NCBI GenBank assembly: GCA_001007975.1
Contig: CP011268.1
Span: 434,001-498,000 of the forward strand
Source of the DNA: a candidate division SR1 bacterium Aalborg_AAW-1
GTDB taxonomy: Bacteria > Patescibacteriota > Gracilibacteria > Absconditabacterales > Absconditicoccaceae
Length of the DNA: 64,000 bases
Direction: 5' to 3'
Shown in pieces: positions 6,381 to 32,887 of the stretch; position 1 is the first letter of the stretch; every line of letters begins with the position of its first letter. The notes below the pieces were generated by a model, which had not been told where the DNA came from, searched no databases, and saw only the letters and a program-made list of their open reading frames with translations. Position numbers and translations under genes: made by a program.

Positions 6381-6845
6381 ATGAGAATTATAGCAAAAAA
6401 TAAAAGAGCATATTTTGATTACGATATCGATCAGACACGAGAAGCTGGTCTTATTTTGCAATGACACGAAGTCAAAGCCTGTAAACTCGATCACTGTACG
6501 ATAACTGAAGCTATTATTAAAATTGATGAAAAAAATAAAATATTGAATATCATCAATATGGATATTCCACTATACAGTAAAACACAACACAACCTCGCTC
6601 CCTGATATATACCCAAAAGACCAAGATGATTGCTCCTCAATCAAAAAGAACTCACTCGTATTTATGCATCATTGAAACAAGGATGAGGATATACAATCAT
6701 ACCGCTTGAACTCTTTGAGACAAAAAATCGTAGACTCAAACTCAAGATAGGTCTAGCGAAACTTCGTCGTAAAGTAGAGAAAAAACAGATCTTAAAAGAA
6801 AAAGACACCGATAGACAGATGAGAAGAGAGATTAGGGAATACTAA
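6381..6845 (+). CDS. smpB: SsrA-binding protein SmpB
   Basis: 154 residues. SmpB delivers tmRNA to stalled ribosomes. Conserved blocks are present: NKRAYFDYDI, EAGLILQGHEVKACK, the RGLLLNQKEL strand and a basic C-terminal tail rich in KK/RR that enters the decoding centre. Four glycines are UGA, including the one in QGHEVKA. The stop TAA shares bases with the stop of the convergent gene on the other strand. No tmRNA gene was found nearby. Confidence 0.93.
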
Positions 6846-16768: not shown

Positions 16769-16842
16769 GCGAGCATGATGTAGTTGGTGTAGCATAGCAG
16801 ACTTCAGCTCTGCTCGTACGGGTTCGAGTCCCGTTGCTCGCT
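16769..16842 (+). tRNA. tRNA-Gly(UCA), reads UGA as glycine
   Basis: 74-nt cloverleaf. The acceptor pairs GCGAGCA with TGCTCGC and the discriminator is T, as in bacterial tRNA-Gly. The anticodon stem is GCAGA / TCTGC with loop CTTCAGC, so the anticodon is UCA. The T-arm is ACGGG / CCCGT with loop TTCGAGT. The anticodon reads UGA and keeps C35, an important glycine identity base. This is the tRNA needed for the code-25 reading seen across the window. Confidence 0.93.
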
Positions 16843-24128: not shown

Positions 24129-24587
24129 ATGAAAATAAAATTAATTGTTGTTATGGTTTTTATAGGTATTCGTATTTATAGCCAAGAAAAAAGTTTCAAA
24201 GTAGGATTTCAGTTAGTTCCAAATGTGACTTTTGTTGAAGGTCAATCAGCAACCTCAGATGTTGCAATAGGTGTTGGTGGTATATATAGTTTTAATAATC
24301 AAATTACTACCATTAATACTTATAATTTTAAATATAAGAGTGTGACTTCCGTTTGGAGCTATTCTTTATCTAAAAATATACAACCTTATCTTTTATACAG
24401 AGCTTCATTTGATTCTGATATTACTCATTATATTTCTTTAGGTTTAACAACACCTTTAACTAATAATGATAATACATATCTAGGATATATAGAAGTTGGT
24501 AGAAATTTGAATAAAAATGTCTTTGTAACCTCTATAGGAATTTTGATACCTATTATGAAAAAAATTACTATTAAATGATTAATCTAG
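24129..24587 (+). CDS. small exported beta-barrel-like protein, probably foreign
   Basis: 149 residues to UGA at 24576, or 152 if UGA is read as glycine and translation stops at TAG 24585. The first 20 residues form a signal peptide ending IYSQE, as is common in Bacteroidota exported proteins. The mature part is a series of amphipathic beta-strands and turns (VGFQLVPNVTFVEG, IGVGGIYSF, YISLGLTTPL, GYIEVGRNL), as in small outer-membrane barrels. No internal UGA occurs among ten or so glycines. The promoter and terminator are its own. The odd stop and composition suggest transfer from a standard-code organism; the family is not named. Confidence 0.5.
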
Positions 24588-30973: not shown

Positions 30974-32316
<1,343 letters not shown>

Positions 32317-32333
32317 TTTCTTATAAGAAAAAG

Positions 32334-32358
32334 GCTCGGATATTCCGAGCTTTTTTTT
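32334..32358. terminator. terminator between convergent eno and the small minus-strand gene
   Basis: Perfect 7-bp stem GCTCGGA / TCCGAGC with A/T runs on both sides, so it works on both strands. Confidence 0.85.
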
Positions 32359-32363
32359 AATAA

Positions 32364-32744
32364 TCAATTTTGAAATTGATTTTTGATTTGTTGGTTTAAA
32401 TTTTCTCCAACTTTTTCGAAACTAAGATCTTCAATGTCTTTTAAAGGTATTTCAGTCAGTTTATTATACCAATTTTTGAAAGAATTTTTTTCACTTATAA
32501 AATTAGTGCTGACTAATTGATCTGAATTACAAATTAAACCATTACCACCAATATAATAATTTTTTGGTAATTGTGATTGTAATTTAACCAATTTTACTTG
32601 AATTTCATTTTTGTTTTTTTCAAACAAAGCAGTTGATTTTTCTTTTAATAAGAATATTTTTTCTATTGATTTTTGATCTAATAGTGTTTCTTTAGAAAAG
32701 TTTTCTAAATAGTCTGCAAGTTTGATTGATTCTGTTTGTGTCAT
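32364..32744 (-). CDS. small soluble protein ending in UGA, probably foreign
   Basis: 126 residues from ATG at 32744 to TGA at 32364. It is Lys/Asn/Gln-rich with a long helical first half and no membrane segment; the family is unknown. There is no internal UGA among its five glycines (for example IGGNGLICN). The UGA stop is followed directly by the shared terminator. If UGA were read as glycine, translation would run about 159 further codons antisense through eno to TAG at 31887. UGA therefore looks like the ancestral stop, suggesting recent transfer from a standard-code genome. Confidence 0.5.
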   Translation of the reverse strand: MTQTESIKLADYLENFSKETLLDQKSIEKIFLLKEKSTALFEKNKNEIQVKLVKLQSQLPKNYYIGGNGLICNSDQLVSTNFISEKNSFKNWYNKLTEIPLKDIEDLSFEKVGENLNQQIKNQFQN

Positions 32745-32766
32745 AATATTTTATTTAATTTTTTGT

Positions 32767-32794
32767 TTTATATTTTATAATATATAAAAGTCAA
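32767..32794 (-). promoter_or_regulatory. promoter of the small UGA-ending gene
   Basis: On the minus strand TTGACT, a 16-bp spacer, then TATAAA, with an AT-rich leader ending AAATAAAATATT before the ATG. Confidence 0.55.
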
Positions 32795-32887
32795 GTATTG
32801 TTTGCAAGGGAAAACTATGTATTTCGTTGTTGAAACTGGTAAAAAAACATGTATACTCTATTGTTTATTTTTTACTCATCAGACCTA

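Follow-up and report, generated by a model that had tools for sequence, protein, structure and literature searches.

An orphan gene that loses its coding signal at a UGA codon in a UGA-glycine bacterium

Introduction

Trans-translation by tmRNA and SmpB resolves non-stop mRNAs. The gene described here would likewise bring a ribosome to a message end that lacks a stop, in a cell that carries both factors, with the difference that the cause would lie in the genetic code of the host and not in a broken message. A second comparison is offered by recoded E. coli without RF1, in which foreign genes ending in UAG meet with suppression, frameshifting and rescue by tmRNA or Arf factors, and in which expression and gene transfer are reduced (Ma et al. 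2018, PMC6207430). In both cases a foreign stop codon would find no release factor. In contrast, the E. coli strain is engineered and its codon unassigned, whereas here the code is natural, UGA means glycine and ArfB was not found. A third is provided by code-11-compatible phages linked to Gracilibacteria/Absconditabacteria, which have no in-frame TGA and whose TGA stops are closely trailed by other stops (Liu et al. 2023, PMC10746230). As in those phages, we find genes without in-frame TGA that appear to follow the standard code in a UGA-glycine host. The close backup stop is matched by two further genes of this genome (the siblings below) and not by the focal gene, which, unlike the phage genes, sits among ordinary chromosomal genes.

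The focal gene lies in a window of 64,000 nucleotides (contig CP011268.1, positions 434,001 to 498,000) from candidate division SR1 bacterium Aalborg_AAW-1, whose genome is a single contig of 1,044,756 bases read with code 25. Genome-wide counts were made on a sample of 464 kb (44%), consisting of the window and 20 stretches totalling 400 kb (L017-L036); the other 56% was covered by named queries. Positions of features are collected in Table 1.

Results

The host reads UGA as glycine, and a single release-factor protein was found in it

Glycine is encoded by 2406 TGA and 5090 GGN codons in the sampled 464 kb, a TGA share of 32%, and the RF1 gene itself carries two TGA. The glycine meaning is illustrated by an SDR oxidoreductase (L028:16654-17478, plus strand), in which G84 and G273, both TGA, match glycine in a Spirosoma homologue. 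The TGA share rises steeply as GC content falls, from ~25% above 34% GC to 67% below 27% GC (180 TGA versus 87 GGN in the low-GC native genes). In the same sample, ribosomal genes avoid TGA, as do others whose expression is probably high.

A search for the RF-1 superfamily gave one protein, which clears the threshold set for RF1 (model NF001859) but not the one for RF2; neither RF2, nor any other factor reading UGA as a stop, nor ArfB was found in the genome. The presence of SmpB, as had been pointed out in the preliminary description, was confirmed, and a tmRNA was found as well, with a TAG-terminated tag (ANSNLRLNVAKKFAFAA). tmRNA-SmpB is the sole rescue system identified in this genome.

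Table 1 Features of the focal locus, its neighbours and related genes. Positions are those of the window unless a stretch is named.
Feature	Position	Strand	Description
smpB	6381..6845	+	
tRNA, anticodon UCA	16769..16842	+	Labelled tRNA-SeC by ARAGORN; the UGA-reading Gly tRNA expected of a code-25 genome, Gly identity presumed from the code
Sibling gene, low GC, secreted-looking	24129..24587	+	10 GGN glycines; sole TGA 3 codons ahead of TAG
eno, convergent neighbour	31084..32316	+	66-72% identity matches in two relatives
Formal code-25 extension	31887..32363	-	Mostly antisense to eno, up to TAG 31889-31887
Predicted tail after UGA glycine	32328..32363	-	12 codons, LLKKSSEYPSLF, no in-frame stop, up to T-run; transcript end placed from the terminator
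Intrinsic terminator hairpin	32334..32350	-	7 bp, then CTTTTTC; shared with eno on the opposite strand
TAA in +1 frame	32357..32359	-	4 nt past TGA; bears on a one-base indel
TGA where coding signal ends	32364..32366	-	Read as Gly by this cell, a stop under the standard code; no RF2 found
Focal orphan ORF	32364..32744	-	126 aa, GC 0.23, ATG...TGA
Putative promoter and leader of focal gene	32745..32800	-	TTGACT-16-TATAAA, ending AAATAAAATATT-ATG; read from sequence
M57 metalloprotease lipoprotein	L035:11161-12165	-	Pfam PF12388, 37.9 bits

The focal ORF has the signature of a small gene

The frame runs from ATG at 32744 through 126 sense codons to the TGA, in agreement with the coordinates and codon count given in the preliminary description. 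It contains no internal TGA, and its four glycines are encoded by GGT (three) and GGA (one). Scored with a codon model derived from this genome's own genes, it reaches +36.9 bits. An ORF opened by chance in AT-rich spacer DNA, which the GC content of just 0.23 and the lack of homologues (below) would allow, is nonetheless an improbable explanation: all five other frames score negative, 126 codons free of TAA, TAG and TGA persist despite 77% AT, and the ORF has a promoter-like sequence ahead of it and a terminator behind. Most likely, then, the ORF is a real small gene with its own transcription unit. The encoded protein gave an AlphaFold2 model with a mean pLDDT of 40 when no alignment was supplied, and this model was set aside.

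The coding signal ends at the TGA

The score along the focal frame stays positive until the TGA and is around zero or lower over most of what follows. Formally, code 25 leaves the frame open for 159 further residues, the UGA glycine included, giving 285 amino acids in total; this antisense continuation through eno had been predicted, and the frame is indeed open to the TAG. The extension scores -5.4, a value as low as which is reached by just 0.26% of 1510 windows of the same length within native genes. Its length carries little weight, since 3.5% of this genome's antisense windows of 143 codons contain no code-25 stop in any case. With the signal dropping as it does, and long open frames being no rarity on antisense strands here, the TGA is most likely the end of the coding part, and no function need be assumed for the extension. 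A native protein that uses the UGA as a true glycine codon and comprises all or a shorter part of the 285-residue frame is very improbable: although the frame is open as far as 31887, the score of the extension is that of antisense noise, a terminator lies in its path, and its overlap with a conserved glycolytic gene would amount to ~430 nt. As to that gene, eno was found in two of six same-family relatives searched, with 0 and 7 TGA codons, and glycolysis is patchy in the family.

A terminator follows within 13 nucleotides, with no other in-frame stop between

A hairpin with a GC-rich stem (GCTCGGAATATCCGAGC-CTTTTTC) begins 13 nt past the TGA, so that the claim of a coding sequence stopping at UGA just before a terminator is borne out. 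On the eno strand the same hairpin is followed by eight T, making the terminator bidirectional. The 464 kb contain 26 terminators immediately preceded by coding sequence, of which 22 have a TAA or TAG ahead of the stem (median 16 nt); two of the remaining four lie within genes, one overlaps the stop of its own gene and one is that of the focal ORF. The focal gene is consequently the only terminator-linked gene end in this 44% of the genome that has a TGA and lacks TAA/TAG, at 13 nt. From the terminator we infer where the transcript ends, and no in-frame TAA or TAG lies between the TGA and this predicted end.

The same region can be viewed as the remnant of a lost stop. A native or long-resident gene could have changed its TAA to TGA by a transition, or suffered a one-base indel, and would now be decaying with a non-stop product. 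A single change suffices, a TAA sits in the +1 frame (32359-32357), and a single orphan gene is easily lost; furthermore, the synonymous codons of the ORF other than those for glycine fit low-GC native genes. However, an out-of-frame stop close by is common in sequence of 77% AT, the rest of the frame is intact, and none of the four glycines is TGA against ~67% in low-GC native genes. We regard stop loss as a serious but less probable explanation. Alternatively, a sequencing or assembly error may conceal an ordinary TAA at the 3′ end, which is rich in A/T with short homopolymers. This is a minor alternative, rated slightly above a chance ORF, as the genome is a single contig with long conserved genes intact, and in no tested pair of overlapping ORFs from the window did both halves belong to one Pfam family. 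Taken together, stop loss and sequencing error amount to somewhat more than a third of the weight in our judgement.

Glycine codons suggest a standard-code origin; searches return no homologue

A curve fitted to the dependence on GC predicts 69% TGA at the GC content of the focal gene, compared to zero of four observed (P ~0.009, with n=4 only). Windows of 126 codons without TGA do occur in low-GC native genes (6 of 92). The Shine-Dalgarno sequence was dropped as a marker of foreign origin: it is uninformative in a genome where such motifs are scarcely used at all (0.4% by strict criteria).

No homologue of the focal protein was found: searches of phages, of plasmids, of viral contigs (two query designs), of genome contigs from 84,980 species (again two designs), of 99 relatives, and of 380 genomes of the phylum and 353 of the class yielded chance-level matches only. 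The two best matches (E ~0.002) fall on unrelated frames and were rejected. Among the relatives compared for synteny, eno or the adjoining oligopeptidase gene is missing or located elsewhere, and the focal ORF was not found there. A match to the NCBIfam arginine dihydrolase NF052232 (E 2.6e-4, 20 bits against a cut-off of 450) was not returned by five shuffled or reversed copies of the ORF. It was rejected after comparison with a profile built from 18 related proteins and run against 1000 sequences, nearly all shuffles, where the focal ORF ranked below many of the shuffles.

Two further genes carry a TGA closely followed by another stop

The preliminary description had overlooked that other foreign-like genes of this genome likewise carry a terminal TGA, there backed by a further stop; one such gene lies within the window itself. 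The gene at 24129-24587 ends ATT AAA TGA TTA ATC TAG, the last codon being part of a terminator stem, and TGA accounts for one of its 11 glycines. The M57 metalloprotease gene ends TAT TGA TTA CTA GCT TAA; it has 13 GGN codons, and its single TGA (1 of 14 glycines) lies four codons ahead of the TAA. Read with the standard code, both would terminate at their TGA. A foreign origin with a backup stop is probable for the former, and the latter is a second candidate of this kind. A 15-mer at the start codon (AAATAAAATATTATG) is common to the focal gene and 24129-24587 and occurs nowhere else in the whole genome, although AT-rich matches of such length are only modestly unlikely.

Genes with a sole TGA near the end show no clear excess genome-wide (3 observed versus 1.3 expected, P 0.12), and so it is by their codon usage, not their number, that the siblings persuade. 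The SDR oxidoreductase serves as a control against calling foreign stops: its TGA two codons ahead of the end encodes a conserved glycine (RFGL* in Spirosoma), hence a near-terminal TGA can be a genuine glycine codon. Table-11 spacer ORFs ending in TGA (L023, L025, L030, L034) were rejected as parallels. Their frames run on in gene-free space and most score positive after the TGA, and they accordingly read as ordinary code-25 genes; the membrane-protein-like L023:8064-8789 is less clear than the others.

Four TGA-free genes (L028:11529-13136, L028:4300-5124, L026:14685-15305 and L031:9765-10088) look like secreted proteins or lipoproteins of Bacteroidota, a resemblance read from the sequences, with the Pfam family match of the M57 protein as its one database counterpart. 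They may indicate that this cell has a partner among the Bacteroidota. Others in the TGA-poor or TGA-free group end in TAA or TAG and have no TGA at all.

With the choice of glycine codons and the two sibling cases in hand, we infer a standard-code origin of the focal gene as our best guess, favoured over a native one. The original reading of its UGA as a foreign stop therefore stands in part: the end of the signal at the UGA, the glycine codons and the siblings agree with it, while the homologue searches came back empty and foreign origin is not proven.

Discussion

Our preferred explanation, to which we assign a probability of about 0.48, is that of a real standard-code gene with its own transcription unit, probably acquired, whose donor UGA lacks a backup stop, so that it is read through as glycine and the ribosome released by tmRNA-SmpB. 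The donor would probably have been a standard-code bacterium, Bacteroidota-like genes being present in the genome. The gene would have kept the UGA stop of its donor with no in-frame TAA or TAG behind it. With RF1 as its only release factor, the cell would decode the UGA as glycine and append ~12 further residues (LLKKSSEYPSLF). The message would be cut at the terminator common to eno, leaving the ribosome at a 3′ end without a stop codon, from which tmRNA-SmpB would free it while tagging the protein for degradation. Expression of the gene would be poor or nil as a result of tagging.

Because UGA has a sense meaning here, no stall is expected at the codon itself, only at the end of the message. 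Of the fates proposed earlier for such a product, a tail of 159 antisense codons is not favoured, as the terminator would cut the message ~12 codons beyond the UGA, and arrest at the hairpin is rated less likely than translation up to the 3′ end left by the terminator. The siblings follow the backup-stop pattern of the phages and the focal gene does not, hence little protein is expected from it. The cell is probably unable to terminate this protein in the ordinary way and has to free the stalled ribosome by rescue. A more far-reaching version, which we put forward only tentatively and consider doubtful, is that the product is made solely as a tmRNA-tagged non-stop protein and that the genome holds a series of foreign genes with unreadable UGA, some with a backup TAG or TAA (giving the tails GLI and GLLA), the focal one without.

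The experimental work that we found on recoded bacteria confronted with incoming unreadable stops concerns engineered E. coli. A stop of this kind in a resident gene, next to foreign-looking genes with backup stops, would offer a natural test of a changed code as a barrier to gene transfer, and such genes would also show ways past that barrier. If the proposed course is true, loss of termination that depends on the code of the host would act as a filter on gene gain in nature.
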